From assembly GCF_019456655.1 (NCBI RefSeq), contig NZ_CP080332.1, positions 4,154,001-4,218,000 of the forward strand: a stretch of 64,000 nucleotides of DNA, read 5' to 3'. Made by a program: the position numbers and the translations under genes. The DNA is from Mycolicibacterium diernhoferi. GTDB lineage: Bacteria; Actinomycetota; Actinomycetes; Mycobacteriales; Mycobacteriaceae. The notes beneath the pieces are model-generated. The model saw nothing but the letters and a program-made list of their open reading frames with translations, was not told the DNA's origin and searched no databases. This document shows positions 21,258-33,114 of the stretch, piece by piece. The number at the start of each line of letters is the position of its first letter. The first letter of the stretch is position 1.

Positions 21258-21328
21258 GCGGGCGTAGCTCAATGGTAGAGCCCTAGTCTTCCAAACTAGC
21301 TACGCGGGTTCGATTCCCGTCGCCCGCT
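21258..21328 (+). tRNA. tRNA-Gly (anticodon UCC), integration target
   Basis: 71 nt plus encoded CCA (21329-21331). Acceptor stem GCGGGCG/CGCCCGC, anticodon loop CTTCCAA with TCC, T-arm GCGGGTTCGATTCCCGT. The 3' 42 bases, from the anticodon loop to the end, are part of the 60-bp repeat at the left end of the mobile element. The gene remains intact, as usual for tRNA-targeting integrases. Confidence 0.95.
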
Positions 21329-21346
21329 CCACGAAGCACCTGGTAG
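21287..21346 (+). repeat. attL: 60-bp direct repeat in tRNA-Gly 3' end
   Basis: Identical over 60 bases to 33055-33114. Similarity continues for another 30 bases with three mismatches, all in a hairpin loop. It contains the tRNA anticodon loop, variable region, T-arm, CCA and the first arm of the tRNA terminator hairpin. Confidence 0.95.
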
Positions 21347-21364
21347 ACAGCGTTCTACCAGGTG
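21337..21364 (+). terminator. tRNA-Gly terminator hairpin, spanning the left recombination border
   Basis: CACCTGGTAG / CTACCAGGTG, a perfect 10-bp stem with an 8-base loop ACAGCGTT. The same stem occurs at 33105-33132 with the loop GCCGCGTC, so the element's own att region rebuilds the hairpin. Confidence 0.7.
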
Positions 21365-21386
21365 GGGAGGCCTCCGAGCCGCTCGG

Positions 21387-21409
21387 CTGTACCCGGTTTG
21401 TACCCGGTG
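21387..21409 (+). repeat. Left copy of 23-bp tandem motif (putative integrase arm site)
   Basis: Two copies of TGTACCCGGT spaced by 11 bases. The identical 23 bases occur at 32880-32902 near the other end. Placement on both sides of the core in the circular form fits P and P' arm-type sites of a tyrosine integrase. Confidence 0.6.
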
Positions 21410-21474
21410 GGCCCGCGCGGGCTCGGCGTGGTGATGTCGCATTCTGACATTTGGCGGTGGGAGAATCTGCCCCT

Positions 21475-22407
21475 GTGACAAGCGACCCGCCCGACCGTAA
21501 TCCCGCTGGCACTTCCATCGGGTCCACCGCCAAGGCCGGATTCACAGTGTCTTGGCCCGGATTGTCGATGACTCTGGCTGTCCTGGCGGTCGCGGCCCTC
21601 GGCACGCTGGCGGTTGTAGTTCCGGTCAAAAATGTCGACGCTCTATCGACAATCGCACTCGCGCTGGCGGTTCTGTCTTTCGCTGCACAGCTGATCGTTA
21701 CCTTGGTTCAGGCTCAGCAAGCGTCGCAGGTCAGCGCGGAGACGCAGGCTGCCTTGACGGAGATGCGTGCGACGAACTCGTCACTGCTCGCAAATCAACG
21801 CGACCATGTTGGCGTGCTGTTAAAAGCCGCTCTTCAACAAGCAATTCCAGCCGCGGTAGACGATGTATCGCAAAGCGCCGATGGGGACACGGACGAAGAT
21901 GCGAGTGACCTGGAAGCGCGCTCAGCAGAACTCGAGACTGCCATCAAGGTTCGAATGGAACAGGCACTAGCCGAAGCCGAAGCACAGTTGGCGCAGAGCT
22001 CCGCAGTTCGGGCCAGCCCTAGCATCAAGCCACTTCTGTCGACGAGTTCATCTACAGCCCAGAAAGAGTGGGATGCGCTTCTGTCAACGTTTCCCAGCGA
22101 CGACGAAGGACAGCCCGTCGCAGAGTTGTTGAGGAAGCTGCCGCCGCGAGCTGTGTCTGCACTCGGCCGCCTAATGGCCGATGCGGCAAAATCGCCGTCC
22201 AGAAGAGTCATATATCGAAAACGGCCAGACTCCGCAGCTAGCGGCATGGATGACCTTGTGCAGAACGGTCTGGCGGAGATTCTGTCGATAAAGATGAACA
22301 AGGATGGATCCGAGAATCGGATATGTCGCCTCACGCCAGCTGGGATTACCGCAGCGCGAATACTCCGAGCCCGCGGCGAGCGTCCCGACTGGGCTACGGA
22401 CCTCTAA
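21475..22407 (+). CDS. Two-helix membrane protein with C-terminal winged-helix-like region, element-encoded
   Basis: 310 aa from GTG 21475; TTG 21451 and GTG 21457 are alternative starts and no ribosome site decides. I do not recognise the family. Two hydrophobic segments, separated by a short loop, span residues about 26-72 (LSMTLAVLAVAALGTLAVVV and ALSTIALALAVLSFAAQLIV). A long Ala/Glu/Gln-rich coiled-coil-like stretch follows (about 75-190). The C-terminal 90 residues look like a winged helix (GMDDLVQNGLAEI, then ICRLTPAGITAARIL). It sits next to attL, convergent with the integrase (4-base overlap of stops). This is the place where accessory or superinfection-exclusion genes are often found; function is unknown. 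Confidence 0.65.
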   Translation: MTSDPPDRNPAGTSIGSTAKAGFTVSWPGLSMTLAVLAVAALGTLAVVVPVKNVDALSTIALALAVLSFAAQLIVTLVQAQQASQVSAETQAALTEMRATNSSLLANQRDHVGVLLKAALQQAIPAAVDDVSQSADGDTDEDASDLEARSAELETAIKVRMEQALAEAEAQLAQSSAVRASPSIKPLLSTSSSTAQKEWDALLSTFPSDDEGQPVAELLRKLPPRAVSALGRLMADAAKSPSRRVIYRKRPDSAASGMDDLVQNGLAEILSIKMNKDGSENRICRLTPAGITAARILRARGERPDWATDL

Positions 22408-23921
22408 CCACGCAGCGGAATGACCTTCGCCACACCGGACGTCGGCGGGGTCGCCACGACCGCCATCGCGCCCAGGGCGGCCATGTCGTCGGCGGCAGAT
22501 TCGCGGTAGAGATGCGCGTACACATTCATCGTCATCGTCACGGCGACGTGCCCCATCCGGCGCGACAACGCGAGCGGCTTAATCCCCGCCGCAGCCGACA
22601 ACGACGCGTAGGTGTGGCGGAGGGCGTACGGCGTCACCCCCGGCGGCACCGTTATCGGAACCATGCCCGGCTCGGCGGTCTCCCTCCCGATACGGTTCGC
22701 CCGGAGCACGGCCGGATTCCAGATCGTCTTGCGGAACGCGTCCAACCGGAGCGGCCCGTCCCAGTTGAACGTGAGCCGCGCGGCAGCCTCATCCACCGAC
22801 AGGTCCGCCAAGGCGGCGGCTTGCCGGTCGGCGGGTGGTAGGTCTTCGTGCCGGGCCGCGCGTAGTTCGGCTCCAGCGTCGCGTACGGCGGCTGACAGAC
22901 GGCTGGGCGGTACGGTGCCTGGTTCGCGCTTGCGCATGTGCGGCAGACGAAGCGGCACCGCAGAGAACCCCGGGAACAACGGCGCGTCGGGGTCGTGCAG
23001 GTTCGGGTGCACGGCGAGGTACGCCCGCAGCCGCGCGGCGGTGTCGGCGGTGAGCGGGACGTCGCGCACAGACCCTTCCGTCTTCGGGTCCAGGTAGACC
23101 GGTTCCCCGTCGATCACGGCCACTGATTCCGCCACAGACAACCAGGACTCCCCCGCGTCCTCGCCGGCCAAGTGCACATCCCCCACCCGTAGCCCGATGA
23201 TCTCCCCCGGCCGCAACCCGGTCCACGCGTCGGTATGCACGAACACCGAGTAGGGCCACGGCGTAGCCGCAGCCAGGACGGCCACCTGCGCAGCGGTAAG
23301 GAACCGGGCCGGGTCGTCCCGACGGCGGGACCGCTTCGCCGCAGACTTGTTGGCGCCCTTGGCGACTGAGGCTGTGCGGTTGCCGGGTAGTTGGACGTGT
23401 TCGGCGGGGTTGGCGGTGAGCTTCTTCGTTTTCACAGCCCACTCCAAAATCTGCCGCACCACAAAGAACAAGTTCCGCACCGACGACGGCTGCCGTCCGC
23501 TGGCCACGAGCCGGTTCACCCAAGCCTGCACATCGTCGTGGGTGATCTTGTTCAGCGGGTAGTCCCCGAACGACGGGTCAATCCGCAGCGGCTGCCCTTT
23601 GTGGGTGAGGCGGGCGTGCCGGGTCATGGACTCTGCGGTGGTCGGGGCGAGCCGTTCGGCGTGGGCGGCGTAGGTGGTCGCCTTCAACGATGCCTTGCGG
23701 TCGTCCAGCCACAACGCTGCCGCTTCCCGGAACAACATCCGCCCCGACGCCGGATCGAACTCGTTGCCATGCAACTTAGCGTTGCGCACCTTCGTAAGGT
23801 GGGCCTCGGCGTCCTTCTTGGAGGCGAAGGTCTTGGACCGGTCCTGGCCGGTGATCGTGTACCACTTGGCGATGTAGACGGTGCGTCCCCCGGTGCGCGC
23901 CCGCTTCTCGATACGGGCCAT
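22404..23921 (-). CDS. int: Tyrosine-type integrase of the element
   Basis: 505 aa from ATG 23919-23921 with GAGGGCTGGG upstream; a longer frame overlaps the recombinase gene and is rejected. The N-terminal arm-binding region begins KRARTGGRTVYIAKWY; the SAM-like core-binding domain follows near residues 80-165. Catalytic residues: Arg about 237 in TGLRPGEI, Arg about 435 in YALRHTY (the usual first His of HxxR is Tyr here, seen in some phage integrases), the GH pair in RRMGH, and nucleophile Tyr about 468 in NVYAHL. It should recombine attP with the tRNA-Gly attB. Gene is next to attL, the normal place. Confidence 0.93.
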   Translation of the reverse strand: MARIEKRARTGGRTVYIAKWYTITGQDRSKTFASKKDAEAHLTKVRNAKLHGNEFDPASGRMLFREAAALWLDDRKASLKATTYAAHAERLAPTTAESMTRHARLTHKGQPLRIDPSFGDYPLNKITHDDVQAWVNRLVASGRQPSSVRNLFFVVRQILEWAVKTKKLTANPAEHVQLPGNRTASVAKGANKSAAKRSRRRDDPARFLTAAQVAVLAAATPWPYSVFVHTDAWTGLRPGEIIGLRVGDVHLAGEDAGESWLSVAESVAVIDGEPVYLDPKTEGSVRDVPLTADTAARLRAYLAVHPNLHDPDAPLFPGFSAVPLRLPHMRKREPGTVPPSRLSAAVRDAGAELRAARHEDLPPADRQAAALADLSVDEAAARLTFNWDGPLRLDAFRKTIWNPAVLRANRIGRETAEPGMVPITVPPGVTPYALRHTYASLSAAAGIKPLALSRRMGHVAVTMTMNVYAHLYRESAADDMAALGAMAVVATPPTSGVAKVIPLRG

Positions 23922-23949
23922 CAGACCCAGCCCTCGTCGGCGACGCGGT

Positions 23950-24615
23950 TCATGCTGACACCGCCACGGGTACCGCCGTCGCCGCGTTGTAGATCCGCCG
24001 GACCGTGGACGCTTGCCAGGTTGGCCGGCCAGCAGGCGACAGAATGTCCTCGGCCTCCAGGCTGCGGGCGATCTGCGCGAACGAGAGCCCGGCGTCGCGG
24101 TCCATGACGATCCGCCGTACAACACCCGGCTTGGCGAGACGGGGACGGCCGACGGGCTCCCCTCGGCGCTTCTTGGCCGCCAGCCCGGCCTTCGTTCGTT
24201 CGGAGATCAACTCGCGCTCGTACTGGGCGAAGCTCATCATGTTGTGGGCGACCATGCGCCCTGCGGCGGTGGTGAGGTCTACGCCGAGGTCAAGCACGAC
24301 GAGCGACCAGCCCTGTTGCTGAGCCGATTCAATAATGTTCGCGGCGTTCACAATTGAACGCGAAAGGCGGTCAAGCTTCGCAACGACCAAGCCGTCTGCT
24401 TGGCCAGAAGCCAACAGTTGCAGCATATCTAGCAGCTCCGGGCCGATCACCTTGCCACTGACGCCCTCATCGGCGCGGTGCTCTACCGTCCATCCACGGC
24501 GGTCTGCATCAGTGTCGATCGCGTGGCGTTGGGCTTCCAACCCGTTACGGCTATTGGCCTGCTCATCGGTACTCACGCGGCTGTAGCCAAGCATCAGCAC
24601 ATTGGACTCCGCCAT
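23950..24615 (-). CDS. Small serine recombinase (resolvase/invertase family)
   Basis: 221 aa. Catalytic Ser15 in GYSRVSTDEQ, the downstream catalytic region LDRLSRSIVNAANII with its conserved Arg residues, the long E-helix with ERELISERTKAGLAAKKRRGE, and a C-terminal HTH of the Hin/Gin type (GLSFAQIARSLEAE, then TWQASTVRRI). It is of resolvase/invertase size, not a large serine integrase. Stop lies 28 bases before the tyrosine integrase start, so the two recombinases may be co-expressed. Possible roles: dimer resolution of the circular replicating form, inversion of an element segment, or an accessory directionality role. No obvious res or inverted target site was found beside it. Confidence 0.92.
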   Translation of the reverse strand: MAESNVLMLGYSRVSTDEQANSRNGLEAQRHAIDTDADRRGWTVEHRADEGVSGKVIGPELLDMLQLLASGQADGLVVAKLDRLSRSIVNAANIIESAQQQGWSLVVLDLGVDLTTAAGRMVAHNMMSFAQYERELISERTKAGLAAKKRRGEPVGRPRLAKPGVVRRIVMDRDAGLSFAQIARSLEAEDILSPAGRPTWQASTVRRIYNAATAVPVAVSA

Positions 24616-24743
24616 GCGCCGTCTCCCTTCACTTTTCGGGGCTTAACCGGACGGTTACGCCTTCCGCCCCGAAAACTACGCCAGTGGCACAATGCACGCT
24701 ACAAACGAGCAGTCCACTCCAACAGCACTTTTCGCAATCCCAT

Positions 24744-25454
24744 CTAGGTTCCGCGCTGCACACGGGCGAGGTACTCGTTGGCTTCCTCTAATGTCATCAG
24801 CTCGGTGCCCGCCGTTTGGCCTGTAGTGGGTTGCGCGGGCTTGTCCTGTCCCGCGTCGCCCTTTGGTCGCGGCAGATCGTCTACGGCTAAAGGGGGCGGC
24901 ATTGCGCCCGCATACGGCACCGTCCTCACGTCAACCACTTCACCTTCCGCAACCTCGACGGTGTTCCGGTCCCAGCGCCTAGCGACTTCACCGGCTCCAG
25001 CCCCAAGCTCCTGGATGCCGCGTGCGGCGCGAGATTCGGCGCGGGTACCGGTCGCCATCCCAGCGATCATCTGCTCCCACGGCTTGGGTCCTGACGCCGC
25101 CAACGTGATCTCGGCTTGGCTCGGAGGCTTAAGGCCCGCCCGGTCCAACGCGTCCTTTATCGCCGCCAAGCGCACCGCCTCACTCTCGGCGCTGTCGGCG
25201 ATGTTCAGCAGTTGCCGCGCCATACGGTCGGCTGCTTCATCGAGCCGCTGCCGAGCCTTGCGTTTTACAGCGGGAGCTCGCGCACCGTGGTGACCGCACA
25301 CGGTTGCTCCTGGGTCGTGCGGCCGCTTGCATCGGTCGCCGTTCTTGCGATGCGCCCTACACCGCCCACGATCGCTACGAGCCTCCCACCACTCGAACGA
25401 GTACTTGGCTGGTGCCGAGGGGTCCACATGCTCAGGGGTCTCCGCGTTGCTCAT
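24744..25454 (-). CDS. Cys/His zinc-motif phage protein, small-terminase-like (HGGxSTS-type)
   Basis: 236 aa from ATG 25452-25454 with AAGGAG ideally placed upstream. Residues 30-62 carry C32-x9-C42-x10-C53 and H55/H56 in TVCGHHGAR, the layout of short phage zinc modules related to the HGGxSTS family, often found beside or within small terminase proteins. A helical region (about 65-115, MARQLLNIADSAESEAVRLAAIKDALDRAG) resembles small-terminase DNA-binding segments. The rest is Pro-rich and probably disordered. Lies after the iteron-like array, and may be regulated from it. Packaging recognition is inference; a general zinc DNA-binding protein is the alternative. Confidence 0.7.
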   Translation of the reverse strand: MSNAETPEHVDPSAPAKYSFEWWEARSDRGRCRAHRKNGDRCKRPHDPGATVCGHHGARAPAVKRKARQRLDEAADRMARQLLNIADSAESEAVRLAAIKDALDRAGLKPPSQAEITLAASGPKPWEQMIAGMATGTRAESRAARGIQELGAGAGEVARRWDRNTVEVAEGEVVDVRTVPYAGAMPPPLAVDDLPRPKGDAGQDKPAQPTTGQTAGTELMTLEEANEYLARVQRGT

Positions 25455-25522
25455 CTCAATCTCCTTGGTTTGCAATCTCTCCACAGTTGGCGTGTCCAAA
25501 GACGTTCCTGCTCTCCGAAATC

Positions 25523-25757
25523 AGAGTCCGCCGAATCAGAGTCCGCCCTATAAGCGCGCGGCGCGGCGGCGGACTGTGAGGTCCGCCCGCCTGCAGCTAC
25601 CCCACGCCCGCGAGAGTCCGCCAGAGTCCGCCGATGGTGTGGCGTACTCTGAATTAGCTGGTAGACAGCACCTTTTAGAGTCCGCCGCGTCAGAGTCCGC
25701 CGAACGTGCTGGCGTACTCTGTCGCTAATCCGATCAGAGTCCGCCGCAGAGTACGCC
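25523..25757. repeat. Iteron-like array of AGAGTCCGCC (putative replication origin)
   Basis: Seven exact direct copies begin at 25523, 25538, 25613, 25623, 25677, 25692 and 25736. A variant AGAGTACGCC lies at 25748, and the same variant inverted (GGCGTACTCT) at 25641 and 25711, which gives two imperfect dyads with 8-9 base spacers. GGCGGACTGT at 25568 is a further weak inverted copy. The array fills the gap between the replication gene's stop and the zinc protein's start, and is the only long non-coding gap on this side of the element. Confidence 0.75.
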
Positions 25758-25805
25758 GGTTCAACCGCGATATTGGGTCGTTTTCCGGCCGGGAAGCCGC
25801 CGCTT

Positions 25806-28229
25806 TTACTCATCGTCGGCGTCCGAAATCTCCCGCAGCGAGACTGCTCGCTTGCCGTCACCGCGCCGCCATCCGATGTCTGTGCGGGGACGGGTGGCGC
25901 CGTCGCTACGGACGACATCACGCACGAACGGTTCCTCAACCAAGAGGCGTGAGCCGACTAACTTCTCAAACTCAGCACGGAAAGCATTGCGTCCGCCGTG
26001 CTCGTGGGCGAGCGCGTCAACCACCGCCGTACGGGAGGCTTCAGGGTGGGTGTCTACGTAGTCCAGAATCAACGCTGCGCGCTCGTTGTTAGACGGGCCG
26101 CGCGCGCTTCCACCGTTGGCGGTGTTACTGGCCGGGTTGACGTCCCAACTGATCTCGCCGTCGTGGCCGCCGACCTCAGGTTCAAACCGCCCCAAGTGCC
26201 AATCCACGTCCCAGGCGTTACCGCCCCACTGGCGCGAGTTGAACTCGGTTCGCAGCCGGAACTCTCCCGCTGGGACGTCGGGGGCTTCACGGTGGTTGCG
26301 GAGGATCCAGCTGTCGGCGTTCTCGGCTTGGCCGGCCATGGAGATGTTGTCCAGGTCGATGCTCTTGCCGACGCCGGTACTGCGGAAGTGGTCGGTAAGG
26401 ATAGACGTCGCCCCGGCGCACTCGCCCCGAACTAGCTTGTGGAACTCGTCGATCGCCTGCCCGCGCTGGTACAGGTTGCCCGTCTCGAGCTCGCGCGGGT
26501 GGAAGTTGTAGAACGATTCAATGAGCACCAGCTCGGGCTGGTGGGTGTCCAGTAGTGCTTTGAGTTCGTTGACGAACGCGTCCCCGTCCATGGGGGCTGC
26601 CCCGAACGCCGCCACAAGCGGGAAGTCAGGATCACGCCTCACCTTGTCCAAATTCAGACCGTACGCCCTGGCCATCCGCTGCAAGGTTCGGCGAACGGGC
26701 AGCTCGCCGCCCTCACCGACGATGTAGAGAACCTTGCGCGCCTTCGGGACTGCAAACTCTGGGTTCAGGTAGAGCGGCTGCGCCGTCGCGCACGCGAACG
26801 CGATGGCTTGGTTGTCGTGGGTCTTCAGAGACTTCTTGGGACCTGCGTTAGGGCCGAACGTGTCCTCGCACAAGGTGCCCTTAATGATCCAACGCACCGG
26901 CGGGACAGGCTCGGCCCACTGCGCCGACGTGAGGATGCTGAAGACGGTGTGCCCAGGCTCCCGCTTGATCTTCGCCGCCCACCCGTCAGGGTCAGCCAAC
27001 GCCGCCAGCATCTCCGGTTCTGCACACACGTCGTCTTGGGTGAGGCACAACTGGCCGGAATCCACTTGCCCTTTGAGCTTGCGCAGTGCCTGCACAGAGC
27101 TCCGGAAGATCTCGCCCTTAAGCTCACGGACCGATCGCTTGTCCCGCGCCTTCACATCACTGATCCAGTGTTCCTCAACAGCCGCCACAGCCTGACCAAG
27201 GCCCCTGTGCCCTTCCGCGGCAAGCATGATCAGAGCCCAGTGAGCGTCTGTGATCTTGTCGTGGGAGCTGGCGTCTTCAGTGATCTGCCGTACCCAATAG
27301 TCCACGCCCCGGCCCTGCATCGTGTCGCAAGGCTCGTCGTCGTAGCCGGGTCGCTCCTTAACCCAGGCCAGAATCTCCTTGACCGAGCTGTCCACGTCGA
27401 CGTCGGTACCTTCGTCACGCATCTGCCCGTTGGTCAGGAAGTCAACCCACGCCTCGGGCATGAGGGGTAGTTCGGAAGGGTCAGGGATGCCGCAGACCTC
27501 GTCGTCGGCTGTGAGCCACTGATATTGCGCTTGCGCCTTGGGATTCCAGCTAGGCCACGCCACCGCATACCGGTAGCCCGGCGAGATAATGTCAATGTCC
27601 TTGTGCGCCTTACCGCGCCAGTGCAACCCCGTAGGGGCGAGGAAGAACCGAATGCCCGACGCGCCATCAGCCCCACGCGCCGTAGAGCGCCAGGTCCTCG
27701 GCAGAGGGCCGTAGTCCTTGATGAGAGCGCGGAGCTGCTTGGCGCCTTCCTTGAGCTTGCCGTCTGACATGTAGTCGTCCACGTCAATCCCGATGACGTC
27801 ATAGGTCACGCCATCCACAGTCACGCTCATCATGCGCAACGCCAGGTTGTCGCTGGAGCGCTCCTTGACCCAGCGGGCTATCTCTGCCTTGGTCGCATAC
27901 GGCTTGCCGCGCCCGGTACGGTCGCGCGGTAGCCCACCTTCCTTCTCCCCTGCCTGTACCGGCAGGGGCGATTGCCACCCGGCGGCGAGGTACTTTGGCG
28001 CGCCGAGGGCATACACACCACCGGCAGCCACATCAGCCACCGAGGCCGACGTGTCAGCGGTCGCTGGGCGAGGCCGTCTACGCCGGATCTTCGTTGTCTG
28101 GCGGGGCGGAGATTCACTGCCGCTATCCCGGCCCAGGATGGTGAAGAGTGGATCGCCTGCAAGGGTATCCACGAGCCAGTCATTCCCCGACCGGCGCGTC
28201 AACGTAGAGTCAGCTAAGATGGTTCTCAC
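25806..28229 (-). CDS. Bifunctional primase-polymerase / RecA-like ATPase replication protein
   Basis: 807 aa from GTG 28227-28229 (AGGAAG lies very close upstream; a slightly later start is possible). N-terminal archaeo-eukaryotic-type Prim-Pol domain: the metal motif GIDVDDYM (DxD, residues about 143-150), SGIRFFLAP and DIDIISPGYRYAVAWPS. Residues about 440-650 form a RecA/DnaB-like ATPase with a variant P-loop GPNAGPKKSLKT (about 456-467), a GEGGE segment and Walker B-like ELVLIESFYNFHP. A winged-helix-like C-terminus follows (ERAALILDYVDTHPEAS). Such proteins initiate and unwind replication of plasmids, satellites and small prophages. Its adjacency to the iteron array supports an origin-binding role. 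Confidence 0.85.
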   Translation of the reverse strand: MRTILADSTLTRRSGNDWLVDTLAGDPLFTILGRDSGSESPPRQTTKIRRRRPRPATADTSASVADVAAGGVYALGAPKYLAAGWQSPLPVQAGEKEGGLPRDRTGRGKPYATKAEIARWVKERSSDNLALRMMSVTVDGVTYDVIGIDVDDYMSDGKLKEGAKQLRALIKDYGPLPRTWRSTARGADGASGIRFFLAPTGLHWRGKAHKDIDIISPGYRYAVAWPSWNPKAQAQYQWLTADDEVCGIPDPSELPLMPEAWVDFLTNGQMRDEGTDVDVDSSVKEILAWVKERPGYDDEPCDTMQGRGVDYWVRQITEDASSHDKITDAHWALIMLAAEGHRGLGQAVAAVEEHWISDVKARDKRSVRELKGEIFRSSVQALRKLKGQVDSGQLCLTQDDVCAEPEMLAALADPDGWAAKIKREPGHTVFSILTSAQWAEPVPPVRWIIKGTLCEDTFGPNAGPKKSLKTHDNQAIAFACATAQPLYLNPEFAVPKARKVLYIVGEGGELPVRRTLQRMARAYGLNLDKVRRDPDFPLVAAFGAAPMDGDAFVNELKALLDTHQPELVLIESFYNFHPRELETGNLYQRGQAIDEFHKLVRGECAGATSILTDHFRSTGVGKSIDLDNISMAGQAENADSWILRNHREAPDVPAGEFRLRTEFNSRQWGGNAWDVDWHLGRFEPEVGGHDGEISWDVNPASNTANGGSARGPSNNERAALILDYVDTHPEASRTAVVDALAHEHGGRNAFRAEFEKLVGSRLLVEEPFVRDVVRSDGATRPRTDIGWRRGDGKRAVSLREISDADDE

Positions 28230-28244
28230 CTTCCTGGTGGAGCT

Positions 28245-28285
28245 CAGGGCCTCGGTTCTCTCGCGAAAGAATCGCCGAGGCCCTG
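28245..28285 (-). promoter_or_regulatory. Large hairpin in the leader of the replication gene
   Basis: Perfect 11-bp inverted repeat CAGGGCCTCGG / CCGAGGCCCTG with a 19-base loop that can pair further (TTCT/AGAA). It ends 16 bases before the replication gene start on the minus strand, downstream of the 236-aa gene. It could be a terminator or attenuator between the two genes or a binding site. Confidence 0.55.
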
Positions 28286-28384
28286 GGTTGTTTCAAAGTT
28301 CGATCGGCGAACGCTACCCGCCCTCCGCTGCGACCACTATGCCGCGAGAGTAACCACACAATGCACGCCCTGCAACTTCGTAAT

Positions 28385-29095
28385 CTATTGCTGTGCAGAG
28401 ACATTAGCGCTAGTCGGACCGGTTCGGCCCAGTGCACGACGGCATTCGTTACACGTCGGAACCGCGATGAGGTACTGACCTCGGGCCCACGCGATGACGT
28501 GGCGCGTGTGCGAGAGGCACCGCTGAGCGAAACGCTCGTGCACCTGTGGCCACTGGCAAATCATCCGCTGCCCGGAAAGATCCCGCAGCCACTGCCTCGG
28601 TCCGTCGTAAAGCACTTGCACATGCACCGGGTCGCCGGCCACCAGGCCGAGAGGGACACTCCACGCGTGGGCGGGGTTGCTCGGGTCGTAGTCGGCTTCG
28701 GAGTAGATGACCCGTTCCATCCCGCTGGTCCCCATAGCAGTCAGCTCACGGTGCACATCCATCGTCGCGGTGAGCACGTCCCGTACGGAGGAACTGCGGC
28801 CTGCATGCAGCGAGAACTCCAACGTCGCGGTCGAGGTGTCTAGGCCGTTAGCCGCCGCAACGGCACTGAACGCCGCACCGGTCTGATCGGCCGAAGCCTG
28901 TATGCGTAGCTCTTCTCGTGCGGAGTACTCCATATGGCACAAGAAGAATCTCTTCAGATCGTCTGGCGCTTCCCCGATCCCAAGGACGTCAGCCTCGTAC
29001 TGCAGGCACTTCACACCGGGGTGCGGTGGATGCGGACACCCACTGATGGCAGGCAGCGGGTAGTCGTCCGGGTCGCTGAACGGGTGGTGGCTCAT
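28385..29095 (-). CDS. Hypothetical element protein with C-terminal CxxC
   Basis: 236 aa from ATG 29093-29095, which overlaps the preceding gene's stop as ATGA, a strong sign of coupling. I do not recognise it. Features: early Cys pair (GCPHPPHPGVKC), a helical central part (MEYSAREELRIQASADQTG), a segment HAGRSSSVRDVLTATMDVHREL, and a late PTCNECRRALG that with upstream His may bind zinc. No membrane segments. It lies between the winged-helix regulator and the replication gene, so an accessory replication or regulatory role is plausible but unproven. Confidence 0.7.
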   Translation of the reverse strand: MSHHPFSDPDDYPLPAISGCPHPPHPGVKCLQYEADVLGIGEAPDDLKRFFLCHMEYSAREELRIQASADQTGAAFSAVAAANGLDTSTATLEFSLHAGRSSSVRDVLTATMDVHRELTAMGTSGMERVIYSEADYDPSNPAHAWSVPLGLVAGDPVHVQVLYDGPRQWLRDLSGQRMICQWPQVHERFAQRCLSHTRHVIAWARGQYLIAVPTCNECRRALGRTGPTSANVSAQQ

Positions 29096-29349
29096 ACCAG
29101 GTCCTCTCGGCGCGATGGACGAGTGCACAGAAACCGGAACAGCTCCGCTGTGGCATACATGCGACGGGGACCGATGATCGGCGCAGTCAGCAGCCCCCGG
29201 TCTGTCGACTTCTTGAGGTACGAAATCGTCACAGACAGGCCCAGTTCATCTCGCACCCACGCTTGCGCCTCGGCGAGAGTCTTGTTCGGTATCGGCGACA
29301 GTGCCACCCCTTGTGGCGGAGCGGGGAGAACTTCTGGCGGCTTACTCAT
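29092..29349 (-). CDS. Small winged-helix/excisionase-like DNA-binding protein
   Basis: 85 aa, ATG 29347-29349 with GGAAGGGG about 7 bases upstream. The core TISYLKKSTDRGLLTAPIIGPRRMYAT has the helix-turn-helix plus wing pattern of MerR/Xis-type small regulators. It is the first gene of the leftward operon (this gene, the 236-aa protein, then the replication protein) and faces the capsid gene across a 252-base control region with TTGCGA repeats. Candidate roles are repressor or activator of the divergent promoters, or recombination directionality factor. Confidence 0.7.
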   Translation of the reverse strand: MSKPPEVLPAPPQGVALSPIPNKTLAEAQAWVRDELGLSVTISYLKKSTDRGLLTAPIIGPRRMYATAELFRFLCTRPSRREDLV

Positions 29350-29601
29350 TCCTGTACCCCTTCCAAGGGTTGCGAATTGATTTGCGAGACAAGCATGTTT
29401 ACTGTTTGACGCGAGCTAGGTTACCTCGTTGCCGGGCCGGTCCGCTTTCCGGCGATATCGCATCGGGCTACGACGTTATTGCAAAGAATCGCAACGCTTT
29501 CCGATCCGTCGCGATGACACCATTCGGAGTACGGTTCGTTCCAGGTCTCGCCGCCGCTCATGACTTATCACCGCCAACCTTGGCGAGAACGGAGAACCGA
29601 A
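29350..29601. promoter_or_regulatory. Divergent control region between early (left) and capsid (right) genes
   Basis: AT-richer than its surroundings. It holds TTGCGA at 29370-29375 and 29382-29387 (direct) and its complement TCGCAA at 29489-29494, plus the palindrome CCCTTCCAAGGG at 29358-29369 over the leftward ribosome site. The rightward gene has GGAGAA at 29591-29596. No confident -35/-10 pairs were identified. Confidence 0.5.
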
Positions 29602-30708
29602 ATGGCACGTCCCCGTGGCTATTCCACCCAGGGAGATGTCCTGGTATCCAAGTCCGGAGATGGCATCGACCTCAACGCCATCTGGGATGAGATCGCCCAG
29701 GCCGCAGCGGTGTACAACAAGCACCAGACCGCGCTCGTCAGCCTGCTCTCGTTCCGGACAACTGATCCTGGTGCTGCGGTCGAACAGGGTGCCTCGCTGC
29801 CTGCGTACGAACGCGCAACCGAATTCGGCGTACCGAAGTCCATCCGCCAGGGCACTGCGCTCCCGGTGGGATACGACCTCCAGGACTACGATTTGCGCTG
29901 GGCGAGTTCTTGGAAGTTCCTGCGGGCCGCGACCGCGAAGCAGATCAAGGACCTTGCGAACACCGCCATGCTGGCGGATCAGAAGAACATCACCGCAACG
30001 GTATTGAATCGGCTGCTTGACCCGGCAGTGTCTGCAAACGAGAACAGCACCCCCATTTTCGGCTGCTGGTCCGGCACAGGGTCGATGATTCCGCCCACGT
30101 TCATGGGCAAGGCCTTCGCCGCCAACCATCAGCACTATCTGGTATCGGGCGCAACCTCTTTGGACTCGGAGGACATCGAGGTTCTCTCCAACCATGTCAC
30201 CGAGCACGGGTACGGGCGCGATGCCGGCAGCCGCCTGTTGATTCTGTGCGGCCCGAACGAGGCTGACGTGATCGCGAGCTTCCGAGCGGGCCAGACCAAC
30301 AACAACTCCAAGGTCGCCAAGCACGACTTCATACCGAGTTCCGCTGCGCCTCCCTATCTTACGGACCAGACGCTCGTCGGCGACCGCGCCCCGGACAACC
30401 TTGGCGGAGTTCCGATCACCGGCAGTTACGGGCGAGCATGGGTGGCTGAGACGCCGCTCATGCCGGACGGATACGTTGCGGCAGTGGTCACGAACGGCGC
30501 CAACTCTGCCCTCAATCCGATCGGGTTCCGCGAGTGGCCTGCACCGGAGTATCGCGGACTCCGGCTGATTCCTGGCGTCGGCCCCTATCCGCTCCAGGAT
30601 TCCTTCTACCAGAGGAGCTTCGGCGTGGGCGTGCGGCACCGTGGCGCAGCCGCAATCCTGCAACTGAAGGCCAGCGGCTCCTACGACACCCCAACCGTCA
30701 GCGTCTAA
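29602..30708 (+). CDS. Phage major capsid protein
   Basis: 368 aa from ATG 29602, GGAGAA 5 bases upstream. The sequence matches the pattern of actinobacteriophage major capsid proteins as I remember them: an N-terminal arm (STQGDVLVSKSGDGIDLNAIW), the GVPKSIRQGTALPVGYDL and FLRAATAKQIKDL segments, VTEHGYGRDAGSRLLILCGPNEAD, and the C-terminal YPLQDSFYQRSFGVGVRHRGAAAIL. HK97 fold is inferred. There is no adjoining scaffold, protease or portal gene, so if it forms shells it either self-assembles or uses helper-phage partners. It is larger than encapsulins (about 265-300 aa) and has no cargo gene. Followed by a strong hairpin. Confidence 0.85.
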   Translation: MARPRGYSTQGDVLVSKSGDGIDLNAIWDEIAQAAAVYNKHQTALVSLLSFRTTDPGAAVEQGASLPAYERATEFGVPKSIRQGTALPVGYDLQDYDLRWASSWKFLRAATAKQIKDLANTAMLADQKNITATVLNRLLDPAVSANENSTPIFGCWSGTGSMIPPTFMGKAFAANHQHYLVSGATSLDSEDIEVLSNHVTEHGYGRDAGSRLLILCGPNEADVIASFRAGQTNNNSKVAKHDFIPSSAAPPYLTDQTLVGDRAPDNLGGVPITGSYGRAWVAETPLMPDGYVAAVVTNGANSALNPIGFREWPAPEYRGLRLIPGVGPYPLQDSFYQRSFGVGVRHRGAAAILQLKASGSYDTPTVSV

Positions 30709-30719
30709 CCAACCGACTT

Positions 30720-30772
30720 CCGAGGCGGGCGGCACTGATTCCTCTCTAGTTTCGGCTCGCCGCCTGCCTCGG
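30720..30772 (+). terminator. Terminator hairpin downstream of the capsid gene
   Basis: 14-bp inverted repeat CCGAGGCGGGCGGC / GCCGCCTGCCTCGG with one mismatch and a 25-base loop, 12 bases after the capsid stop. It would raise capsid over downstream expression if partly read through. Confidence 0.7.
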
Positions 30773-30810
30773 GTTCTCCCACCAGCAGCTGTCAACGACG
30801 AGGAACCACA

Positions 30811-30990
30811 ATGGCCGTACCTGGACAACGCCCCGGTGACAGTGAGTTTGGCTTCGCCGGCCAAGAGCCCCTCGACCCGGTAACGGGCAAGCCGTTTCCG
30901 GTCAGCCAGGGCGGACGGTATCGCGGCACCTCCCCGCATGACGGCCAGCCCGACGGTCGCGCCGACCCCGGCCGCATCATTCGCCGGTAA
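30811..30990 (+). CDS. Small 59-aa Gly/Pro-rich element protein
   Basis: ATG 30811 with GAGGAA 5 bases upstream; stop TAA at 30988-30990; the next gene begins 12 bases later with its own site, so this is a real gene in an operon. The chain is Gly/Pro/Asp/Arg-rich and probably unstructured (MAVPGQRPGDSEFGFAGQEP, later PFPVSQGGRYRG and a basic end IIRR). Unknown. Its place directly after the capsid gene suggests a capsid-associated, decoration or connector-type role, which is inference from position only. Confidence 0.65.
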   Translation: MAVPGQRPGDSEFGFAGQEPLDPVTGKPFPVSQGGRYRGTSPHDGQPDGRADPGRIIRR

Positions 30991-31002
30991 GGGCAGAAGG
31001 TC

Positions 31003-32478
31003 ATGGCAGACGTTTGGTATGTAGGTCCGGGTTCCTCGTACACCATCACGACAGACCAATGGGCCGAGCACTCCATCGTGGCGGACACGGTCATCTGGAC
31101 GGCGGCTAACGGCTGGTCCATCCCGGAGAGCGTCTTTTCCTCTAGACAGCTCGCACTCCTGAGCGCCGACCGCAGTTTCGTGCTCGGGCAGAACGGTCCC
31201 CGCCTGCACCCCAGCCCTACGCCCGTACCGCTTGGAATCGCCAGCCTCCAGTCGGCTCACGCGTACTACGCAGCGATACGGGAACTGGTCCAGACCTTCG
31301 AATCGGCTGAGGGACTGGAAGCAACTGCGAGGAAGGTCCCGCTGGCCAGCTACATGCGGCCGATGTCCAAGACGCCCTACCCCGCCACCGACGTCGCGGC
31401 CTACACCGTCGATACGACCGACCCGGCCTACTCCGACCAGCGGCACTACTTCTTCAAAGACACGGATATCGAGGCCCGTTGGCGGTTCAATGGGTCGTGG
31501 TTCGACGCGGGGAACAACCCGGTCAACCAGATCAGCGGCGGCACCCCAAGCGAGTTCAACAACGCCACCAGCTACGAGATTGAGTTCTACGTCAGCGGCG
31601 ACCGGTTCGCCTTCGCGTTGCTCAACACCACCGTCAAAGATGACTTCCGCATCTTCGTCGACGACATGCCACTCACAGCCGGATGGGATTTCACCGCCTC
31701 GGGGCTGTACAGCTCCAACTACGCCAAGGTCCAGTTCGCCACGTCTCGCGTGCGCAAGGTCCGCCTGTTGTCGTCGGGCCTCATCAGCTTCACCGGCGTC
31801 CTGGTCCCTGGTGCTGCGGCTATCTGGGCTGCCCCGCCACGGTTCCGTGTGGCCGTCGTCGGCGACTCGTACGTTCAGGGCGGATTCGACACCGGGTCCG
31901 ACGGGTGGCTCATGGGAGGCGGATTGTGCAACCAGCTCGCCATCCTTACCGGGTGGGAGGTGCTCAACCTCGGCCAGAGCAACACCGGCTACGTCAACGA
32001 CGGCGGGGGCACCATCGGCAAGAGCACCTACGGGTCTGCTGCCCGACTGGAAGCCATGGCGGCGTTGCCACCGATTGATCTGGTCATCATCTTCGGCAGC
32101 GCCAACGACACCGGCTACGCCACCGGCACTGTCGTGGCAGCGGCAGGCACCTACTGGTCCGCGCTCAAGACAGCCCACCCCAATATCCCAATCGTGGTGG
32201 TCGGCGTGGAATCGGGGTCGCTGGAAGGGTTCAGCCCAACCGTCATGGACACGCTCAACACCGCCCTCATCAACGCCGCCATGGCGAGCAACGACGTGGC
32301 CGGCGCAATCGACATGCGCACAACCCCGTGGGTAACCGGGACAGGTATCGACGGCTCGCCCGAAGGCGACGGCAACGCCGACTTCTTCATCTCTAACGAC
32401 GGCCGACACCCCACCCGCGCCGGGGCTGCCTGTCTGGCGGAGCGCATCACCAGCGAACTCAGCGCCACCCGAGTCTGA
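31003..32478 (+). CDS. Phage tail-type protein with SGNH/GDSL hydrolase domain
   Basis: 491 aa, AGAAGG just upstream of ATG 31003. Residues about 1-110 resemble N-termini of actinophage minor tail proteins (VWYVGPGSSYTITTDQW, TVIWTAANGWSIP). Residues 280-490 are an SGNH hydrolase: G287-D288-S289 with the nucleophile Ser, block III Asn about 368 in GSANDTG, and D466/H469 in DGRHPTRAG; the Gly block II region is GQSNTGY. The middle (about 130-270) looks like a carbohydrate-binding-type beta domain. By family knowledge it would deacylate or de-esterify an envelope polysaccharide or lipid. Likely a receptor-binding or envelope-modifying protein carried on the virion or released. Confidence 0.85.
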   Translation: MADVWYVGPGSSYTITTDQWAEHSIVADTVIWTAANGWSIPESVFSSRQLALLSADRSFVLGQNGPRLHPSPTPVPLGIASLQSAHAYYAAIRELVQTFESAEGLEATARKVPLASYMRPMSKTPYPATDVAAYTVDTTDPAYSDQRHYFFKDTDIEARWRFNGSWFDAGNNPVNQISGGTPSEFNNATSYEIEFYVSGDRFAFALLNTTVKDDFRIFVDDMPLTAGWDFTASGLYSSNYAKVQFATSRVRKVRLLSSGLISFTGVLVPGAAAIWAAPPRFRVAVVGDSYVQGGFDTGSDGWLMGGGLCNQLAILTGWEVLNLGQSNTGYVNDGGGTIGKSTYGSAARLEAMAALPPIDLVIIFGSANDTGYATGTVVAAAGTYWSALKTAHPNIPIVVVGVESGSLEGFSPTVMDTLNTALINAAMASNDVAGAIDMRTTPWVTGTGIDGSPEGDGNADFFISNDGRHPTRAGAACLAERITSELSATRV

Positions 32479-32555
32479 ACCCCACGTCACGATTCCGGTC
32501 TACGCGCGTTGGCGCCGAGTTAGGCTGCTGTCAGCAAACCTCAGAGGAGCGGCCC

Positions 32556-32846
32556 ATGCTGTTTTCGACGATCGTCGCTGCACGCCGCTCTGCCGTGGTG
32601 GTGGCCAGCGGCATTGTCGCGTTCGCGTTTGGCCTCGGGCTCATCGGGAACCTTATGCCAGTTGCTGGCGCCTATGCGCCAGAGTGCACGACTGCGCAGC
32701 CGTACCCGAACTCCCCGTATGACATTTGCACCGGTTACGGCCAGACCTGCGCTCGGTCAATGTGCTCGTCGCCGCCAGGGACTCCGGGCAAATGGGGTAC
32801 GGACGGTAGTTACACTCCGTGCACGTACAGGAATGGCTGTAGCTGA
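32556..32846 (+). CDS. Secreted six-cysteine small protein near attR
   Basis: 96 aa from ATG 32556, with GAGGAG about 8 bases upstream. Residues 1-41 form a signal peptide (AARRSAVVVASGIVAFAFGLGLIG core, cleavage likely after AGAYA). The mature part of about 55 residues has six cysteines (ECT, DIC, QTC, SMC, TPC, NGC), enough for three disulfides, with many Pro, Gly and Tyr. I know no family. It is the last gene before attR, where lysogenic-conversion genes usually sit. It could be an exported toxin, a bacteriocin-like peptide or a surface modifier; none is shown. Confidence 0.7.
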   Translation: MLFSTIVAARRSAVVVASGIVAFAFGLGLIGNLMPVAGAYAPECTTAQPYPNSPYDICTGYGQTCARSMCSSPPGTPGKWGTDGSYTPCTYRNGCS

Positions 32847-32879
32847 CGCCCGATTGCACACTCGTTCGAATCTGGCGCT

Positions 32880-32902
32880 CTGTACCCGGTTTGTACCCGG
32901 TG
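32880..32902 (+). repeat. Right copy of 23-bp tandem motif (putative integrase arm site)
   Basis: Identical to 21387-21409: two TGTACCCGGT units spaced by 11 bases, located 152 bases before the right core repeat. Confidence 0.6.
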
Positions 32903-33054
32903 CGCAGAAAGTCGCCCCGCCAGCGACGAACGGCCCCACGGCGTTGCTGCACGGTTCGAAAGAGCTGGTAGACGGCACTTTCTCAGGCGAGTTTTCGTCG
33001 CTCTAGCAGCCACCGCGCGGTTCGGGCTGACCAGCGCGAACGCTCTGCGTGATT

Positions 33055-33114
33055 TCTTCCAAACTAGCTACGCGGGTTCGATTCCCGTCGCCCGCTCCAC
33101 GAAGCACCTGGTAG
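33055..33114 (+). repeat. attR: 60-bp direct repeat
   Basis: Identical to 21287-21346. It contains only the 3' part of tRNA-Gly and so is not a tRNA gene. The host flank follows, beginning inside the hairpin loop. Confidence 0.95.

Follow-up and report, generated by a model that had tools for sequence, protein, structure and literature searches.

Classical phage-inducible chromosomal islands (PICIs) span about 13-15 kb, a size like that of the element described here, an 11.8-kb island integrated in a tRNA-Gly(TCC) gene of Mycolicibacterium diernhoferi. It lies within a stretch of 64,000 nucleotides (GCF_019456655.1, contig NZ_CP080332.1, positions 4,154,001 to 4,218,000 of the forward strand; hereafter the window) of a 6.0-Mb, single-contig genome. 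Very probably, it is a phage satellite of a widespread mycobacterial family that owns its major capsid protein (MCP) and small terminase (TerS) and receives the rest from a helper phage. Classical PICIs, including the Staphylococcus aureus pathogenicity islands, resemble the element in their tRNA or other specific attachment (att) site, in a primase gene followed by repeats and, for some of them, in TerS (PMC6092414). The arrangement described there for the replication origin appears here as a predicted Prim-Pol/AAA gene with seven iterons in the gap after its end. By contrast, PICIs orient integrase and regulator genes opposite to xis, primase and terS, whereas the element has integrase, a serine recombinase (family RES), TerS, primase and a regulator-like gene on one strand, with the MCP gene divergent from the regulator-like one. 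Unlike classical PICIs, the element encodes its own capsid protein. Unique att sites are a trait of classical PICIs (PMC6092414); here the trait would depend on which phage is the helper, the tRNA-Gly att sequence being common to many mycobacteriophages. Classical PICIs are further induced by a phage and packaged in phage-like particles (PMC6092414), which for the element is a prediction.

Capsid-forming PICIs (cf-PICIs), as defined in PMC10690885, are similar in having their own MCP and TerS and in relying on helper tails. They also encode a head maturation protease, portal and head-tail connectors, which Pfam and PHROG scans and a controlled tblastn search did not find here, and the large terminase (TerL), TerS and an HNH protein, of which the element has TerS only, no TerL match being obtained and no HNH match by Pfam or PHROG in the window proteins. 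The Streptomyces satellites MulchRoom and MiniFlayer (PMC10690885) are likewise actinobacterial with their own capsid gene, and MulchRoom has a tyrosine integrase; unlike the element, they have genes for both terminase subunits, the portal and the scaffold, as well as direct terminal repeats. phiRv1 and phiRv2, which together with similar elements are called PICI-like in PMC10654092, were compared by description only: they are alike in size (about 9-11 kb), integrase and predicted capsid (PMC3986857, PMC10654092, PMC8801708), but phiRv1 differs by a large serine integrase (a title cited in PMC10654092) and by having no tRNA site (table of PMC3986857).

Mycobacterium regions with an integrase and a capsid gene, many at tRNA genes and some with DNA replication, terminase or scaffold genes, have been presented as candidate PICIs and proposed to be phage-inducible, those of slow growers corresponding to phiRv1 and phiRv2 (mSystems 2023, PMC10654092). 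As the element shares their integrase, major capsid gene and tRNA sites, the kind itself is not new. The candidates are defined by integrase and capsid only, and the available text describes no fixed set of MCP and TerS, no separate capsid lineage and no Patience-like helper. By the definitions in PMC6092414 and PMC10690885, the gene set stands between classical PICIs, with TerS and no capsid, and cf-PICIs, with the whole head and packaging apparatus. What is new is the fixed MCP and TerS set, the separate MCP lineage changed at loops of capsid geometry, and the helper assignment; titles and abstracts of the literature searched, mostly without subscription papers, contained no description of a satellite with MCP plus TerS.

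Capsid and small-terminase genes with no other head gene detected

The element is flanked by att repeats identical over 60 bp (87/90 bp over a longer repeat), the left copy covering the 3' part of the tRNA gene (Table 1). Its core, as read from the DNA, comprises the tRNA site, the exact repeats, and predicted tyrosine integrase, primase, iterons, MCP and TerS. The MCP is of the Patience/Adjutor type; it matches 153 phage records, all below 60% identity and at best 41% among the matches listed, and retains the metal-site residues H198, H200, E223 and H224 (Patience numbering).

An earlier note on this DNA had described a complete-looking mini-element with capsid but no packaging machinery. The latter statement has to be withdrawn, as it overlooked a TerS homologue, together with the 59-aa open reading frame (ORF) and the iterons listed in Table 1. 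The TerS protein matches phrog_2538 (small terminase, E 1.5e-7). A hidden Markov model (HMM) of its family, built from 35 members and run against 71 proteins of the phages Patience, Troll4 and Jalebi, retrieved Patience gp3, annotated as terminase small subunit (1e-13), and Troll4 gp2 (8e-10). In a search against the window's own proteins, Troll4 gp2 was 39% identical to the TerS homologue over 80 residues (E 2.8e-8); tblastn with the latter against all phage records gave 3 records only, Patience, Troll4 and Jalebi not being among them. Patience gp3, Troll4 gp2 and 40 of the 41 frames detected by the TerS HMM, the window's included, share a C-C-C-HG motif, which occurs in 0/875 other called genes. 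By homology, the element thus owns a predicted part of the packaging machinery.

None of the 10 element proteins submitted to Pfam and PHROG, a set without the 59-aa ORF, had a match named portal, large terminase, protease, tape measure or lysis, in agreement with the earlier note. In tblastn searches (E 1e-5) with 11 queries, namely TerL, portal, scaffold and minor-capsid proteins from Patience, Troll4 and Jalebi, no match was obtained in any of 48 mycobacterial MCP regions, in the window element or in L179, a satellite of another genome; in the positive control, 75/80 viral contigs matched (44/80 with TerL or portal, many contigs being short). These data bear out the earlier view of a satellite and not a remnant of longer prophages. 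When all 68 non-MCP proteins from the three phage stretches served as queries, the window was matched by Troll4 gp2 and by Jalebi gp4 and gp5, L179 by the two Jalebi proteins, and no other satellite-side sequence by any of them, whereas 77/80 viral contigs matched; of the three others, L006 and L008 carry satellite genes and L007 had no match. A PHROG scan of the 183 non-core ORFs of at least 75 aa in 26 related elements, with 62 shorter ORFs set aside, yielded HTH, HNH, ParB-like, methyltransferase and other non-virion or unnamed families; none of the best 25 of 62 and best 25 of 111 families was named portal, large terminase or tail. The missing portal, TerL and tail genes point to dependence on a helper. 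The Jalebi 'Major capsid pentamer protein' was considered as a missing partner and discarded, its Patience counterpart being annotated as a minor capsid protein, likewise in PMC10635136.

A conserved family in Mycobacterium

A contig scan with a single protein gave 2 loci, and a wider genome search was used instead. MCP relatives were detected in 94 of 396 sampled Mycobacterium genomes with the window protein as query and in 53 of 198 with an MCP profile; the two samples overlap, and both count fragments and include the M. diernhoferi genome. Across the order, matches were obtained in 9 of 298 genomes (eight of the same genus, one of another genus of the family), in 2 of 76 genera. Among the 48 regions examined, one is a remnant in the M. 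diernhoferi genome itself, and 5 are shorter than 10.3 kb since their contigs end there. Flanking repeats defined 26 complete relatives (L130 by a 14-bp repeat only); L159 (span 12,980) and L163 (9,745, broken MCP) were left out despite their repeats. The 26 relatives measure 11,916-14,081 bp (mean 12,958, SD 513), and their repeats lie at tRNA genes in all but L155. L158 and L163 occupy the same tRNA-Gly(TCC) as the window element.

Across the 27 complete elements, window included, the integrase family (INT), MCP and TerS are present in 27, the primase family (PRIM) in 25, RES in 22 and the post-capsid family F7 in 21; the MCP count reflects the selection of loci, whereas that of TerS does not. 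Between relatives at 78-98% identity, dN/dS was 0.07-0.13 for MCP (14 of 23 pairs, one without value), 0.16-0.18 for TerS (2 pairs) and 0.07-0.16 for RES (14 of 29 pairs), values that are rough, some synonymous distances exceeding 1. Among the 120 MCP relatives listed, the longest contigs numbered 23 at 11.5-14.3 kb, 5 at 8.9-11.5 kb, 12 at 6.1-8.9 kb and none at 14.3-17.1 kb; this peak, known from lengths alone, is what free unit-length molecules would give. By these comparisons, the element belongs to a conserved family that is probably active.

Gene content varies at the left end, ahead of INT, and beyond the MCP, for instance in L118, L123, L149 and L153, and the PHROG matches of non-core ORFs include DNA methyltransferases and HNH nucleases. 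Genes of these variable regions are likely cargo and may serve in defence; in the window, PADLOC (E 0.01, 9 proteins) matched no known defence gene. A second element of this kind in the M. diernhoferi genome, L165 (G000:C1:4251598-4270963), lies about 45 kb beyond the window and is decayed: its MCP is broken, there is an integrase match, and its 45-bp repeat, at tRNA-Lys(CTT), spans 6.4 kb. L179 occupies the same kind of tRNA in another genome.

The satellite capsid proteins form a separate lineage

An MCP tree was built from 119 of 134 loci plus the window (15 loci with stops or with short or no matches were dropped), giving 97 distinct rows, labelled by gene context for viral contigs and by source for chromosomal loci. 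One branch with 100/100 support separates 50 phage rows from 46 satellite rows and the unlabelled L007, whose row is nearly identical to that of L118. Ten columns are fixed differently, at 75% or more on each side. In Patience-type capsids (T=7, where T is the triangulation number; 63 nm inside; genomes of 64.5-70.5 kb), hexamers are split and bridged by gp4, the E-loop straightens from V73 in the split-bridging chains, and the N-arm turn and the G-loop touch each other and gp4 (PMC10635136). This hinge residue is V in 49/50 phage rows and T in 40/46 satellite rows. Other satellite-specific columns are 77, 155, 157 and 161, with three more near 308, 367 and 374; position 168 is a gap in 46/46 satellite rows, and 40/46 have a one-residue insertion in the N-arm. 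Satellites have 42-44 residues in the stretch 155-200; 49 of the 50 phages have 46-49, and the remaining one has 43. At the metal site, all 46 satellite rows keep H200, whereas 30 keep H198, 29 keep E223 and 31 keep H224 (15 have K there); one third of the satellite family has thus lost part of the site.

With an assumed shell thickness, a T=3 capsid was estimated to have room for about 16-18 kb and a T=4 capsid for 26-29 kb. The power law relating genome size to T (exponent 0.71, PMC8814770), rescaled here, places a 13-kb genome at T 2.2 to 2.9. According to a theorem in PMC10635136, all-split hexamers are impossible when T is a multiple of three; a T=3 shell would forbid them and would thereby fit the changed hinge. 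The formation of a small head is plausible on these sequence comparisons.

Gene layout and accessory genes

From left to right, the minus strand carries the tyrosine integrase, serine recombinase, TerS homologue, Prim-Pol/AAA, 247-aa and 85-aa genes, and the plus strand a protein of about 310-318 aa at the left end, followed by MCP and the 59-aa, SGNH and 96-aa six-Cys proteins (Table 1). The integration, replication, shell and SGNH genes named in the earlier note, as well as its serine recombinase and six-Cys protein, are all confirmed as open frames, the last by its six cysteines and the others by Pfam or PHROG support.

Table 1. Features of the satellite element, in window coordinates.
Feature	Position	Strand	Evidence
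tRNA-Gly(TCC), integration target	21258..21331	+	ARAGORN
Left att core, 60 bp exact	21287..21346	+	Repeat comparison; phage-record matches
Two TGTACCCGG repeats, left, probable integrase arm sites	21388..21407	+	Copy count
318-aa protein, no assigned function; start possibly 21475	21451..22407	+	ORF, Pfam/PHROG scans
Tyrosine integrase; start separately assessed	22404..23921	-	PF00589 4.7e-7, phrog_1 2e-54 (longer ORF)
Small serine recombinase (resolvase/invertase type)	23950..24615	-	PF00239 3e-36; family RES in 22/27 complete elements
TerS homologue, true start uncertain	24744..25499	-	phrog_2538, HMM link, Troll4 gp2 match, motif, 27/27 elements
Seven AGAGTCCGCC iterons, probable replication origin (or pac site)	25523..25745	+	Repeat count
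Prim-Pol/AAA primase-helicase	25806..28229	-	PF09250 2.5e-16, PF13481 7e-14, phrog_1156 1e-61
247-aa protein	28385..29128	-	No Pfam or PHROG match
85-aa putative excisionase/regulator	29092..29349	-	Family F4 HMM E 1e-20; no Pfam or PHROG match
MCP, Patience/Adjutor type	29602..30708	+	phrog_3990 E 5e-94; PDB 8saj 8e-81, 8giu 3e-76
59-aa conserved post-capsid protein, family F7, Troll4 gp1 relative	30811..30990	+	First-round HMM E 0.002; 34/48 regions
SGNH esterase, N-terminal module in common with Lambovirus Jalebi gp4 and gp5	31003..32478	+	PF13472 1.4e-9
96-aa protein, six Cys, probably secreted, accessory	32556..32846	+	phrog_20994 6e-21
Two TGTACCCGG repeats, right, probable integrase arm sites	32881..32900	+	Copy count
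Right att core, 60 bp exact	33055..33114	+	Repeat comparison

The GC content is 0.638 in the element and 0.679 outside. TGTACCCGG occurs five times in the window, four of them just inside the two ends of the element, as expected of probable integrase arm sites. The seven copies of AGAGTCCGCC all lie in one orientation between primase and TerS, with none elsewhere in the window. The corresponding gap in 28 relatives holds a repeated 9-mer unmatched in 200 shuffles in 12 cases and nothing notable in at least 13, and the repeated motif differs per element, as in L132, L151, L154, L155, L156 and L158. These repeat patterns make an origin in the gap plausible, though not general across relatives, and the element-specific repeats are possible origin or pac specificities. 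A 13.5-kb query matched 262 phage records (240 of them Mycobacterium phages), at the att region among the matches listed. This region (21287-21376) is common to many mycobacteriophage genomes, so that a single attachment site may be contested between the satellite and other phages.

The first-round F7 HMM, from 14 relatives, searched against 20,271 frames, detected the family in 34/48 regions, the window copy at E 0.002 and Troll4 gp1 at E 0.001; a second round reached 35/48 regions, one at E 0.027. Among the 71 phage proteins, the F7 HMM matched Troll4 gp1 at E 3e-6, through a short N-terminal motif of 16 residues, and the two are likely homologous. Troll4 gp1 has relatives in 42 phage records, and its gene directly precedes that of the TerS homologue gp2.

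The earlier note took the SGNH gene to stand in place of head-assembly genes. It is instead an accessory gene, as is that for the six-Cys protein, and at least one other satellite, whose MCP is different, has it in the same position. In L179, at its tRNA-Lys site, a relative (64%) follows an MCP that is 39% identical, which indicates that the gene moves between satellites. Close copies among the 396 genomes were limited to M. diernhoferi and L179, 65 other genomes giving weak matches as any SGNH enzyme might; in a large protein database 17 matches were obtained, including itself, several on 12-14-kb contigs. The residues that we take to be catalytic are invariant in 16 rows. Residues 1-74 are 47% identical to residues 1-62 of Jalebi gp5, the remainder of which is different, and Jalebi gp4, which starts like gp5 (72% identity) and adjoins the portal gene, is 28% identical over nearly the full length. 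This portable N-terminal module on neighbouring genes of a phage structural region suggests a particle anchor. The AlphaFold2 model has a mean pLDDT of 73, with most of the first 110 residues low, and its best Foldseek matches are carbohydrate esterase family 2 enzymes, and also phage esterases, tail fibres and one neck passage protein. We conclude that the SGNH protein is probably a particle-borne envelope esterase, riding on the particle via its N-terminal module. For the six-Cys protein, matches over 48 residues were obtained in 11 mycobacteriophage records, including those of Konstantine and Damien, which have the same MCP type. Several elements (L128, L136, L138, L156) encode, after the MCP region, a very short lysine-rich protein (37-40 aa, family F18), maybe a DNA-binding or packaging aid.

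Discussion

For MCP, TerS, F7 and the six-Cys protein alike, relatives occur in the Patience/Troll4/Konstantine group, which makes a Patience-like actinophage the likely helper on present gene comparisons. Such phages, namely Patience, Adjutor, Troll4, Konstantine and Jalebi, share with the satellites the MCP type, TerS (Patience, Troll4), a gp1-like protein (Troll4), the six-Cys protein (Konstantine) and the esterase (Jalebi); they differ in their 64-71-kb genomes, in having portal, TerL, scaffold and tails, and in MCPs across the 100/100 branch. Upon infection by this helper, the element would excise and replicate. Satellite TerS would direct the helper large terminase onto satellite DNA. 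From satellite MCP and the scaffold, portal and minor proteins of the helper, heads would be built with room for a single genome of about 13 kb but not for the 64-70-kb genome of the helper. The helper would also supply tails and lysis, and the SGNH esterase, carried via its N-terminal module, would probably act on the cell envelope. A more specific version of this scheme, whose chances we hold to be slightly below even, would make the element a third type of satellite, owning only the shell protein and a packaging guide. Its MCP would be a dedicated lineage of the split-hexamer (Patience) type, and the changes in its E-loop hinge, in its N-arm turn and at the base of its G-loop would let the helper's scaffold and portal build a small head, T=3 being the nearest size, that lacks gp4-bridged split hexamers; the satellite's own TerS would steer the 13-kb genome in.

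Could the element simply be what is left of an integrated Patience-like phage that lost most of its genes? MCP, TerS and F7 are phage-derived, and broken MCP copies occur, one in the same genome and several in relatives. The same reduced set is nevertheless found in 27 elements of tight size, and the satellite MCPs form a separate lineage under purifying selection, a combination that random decay would not produce; the conserved gene set, the uniform size and the MCP tree lead us to reject such a prophage as very improbable. Satellite MCPs that mix into helper heads and spoil or stretch them, the satellite being packaged as multimers in full-size heads, would agree with the fact that five units of about 13 kb amount to about 65 kb, the helper genome size in PMC10635136, and with the failure of tblastn with phage scaffold queries to find a scaffold gene of its own. 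Against such interference, the changes fixed only in satellites at hinge, N-arm and G-loop suggest a different shell, and the contigs are of unit size, and we regard it as rather improbable. It is somewhat unlikely, in our estimate, that MCP, TerS and F7 were acquired long ago and that another kind of mycobacteriophage mobilises the element now, an idea in keeping with the old, separate MCP lineage, with the att sequence common to many other mycobacteriophages and with a helper known here from genes alone. Against this idea, a TerS has to match the TerL of its helper and an MCP the helper's portal and scaffold, and four gene families point to one phage group.

Several points leave room for doubt about a live satellite of a Patience-like phage. 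A resident helper was sought in the M. diernhoferi genome and discarded: no helper-type prophage was detected by a Troll4 TerL search, run without positive control, or by a PF05065 search in which control genomes matched, and the helper would have to come from outside. When the joined flanks were compared with 41 genomes (its own and 40 relatives), no relative among the matches listed continued across the junction into the right flank. The window MCP has an end branch of length 0.86, an unsure position within the satellite side and no close pair for dN/dS among the relatives analysed here, and the decayed L165 in the same genome shows that some family members die. Excision, packaging and transfer are predicted from genes alone. 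A capsid-encoding, helper-dependent satellite, as proposed in the earlier note, is well supported all the same, whereas the wholly borrowed packaging that it assumed does not stand beside a TerS of its own.

With MCP and TerS and no other recognised head or packaging gene, such elements fall outside the definitions of PICIs and cf-PICIs in PMC6092414 and PMC10690885. The two MCP lineages offer a natural comparison between phage heads for 64-70 kb and elements of 13 kb; their fixed differences are few, and several lie in loops that cryo-electron microscopy has described, which makes the control of capsid size directly testable. In about one quarter of the Mycobacterium genomes sampled, an MCP of this type is present, whole or in part, and conflict between helpers and satellites is likely a common force acting on mycobacteriophages.

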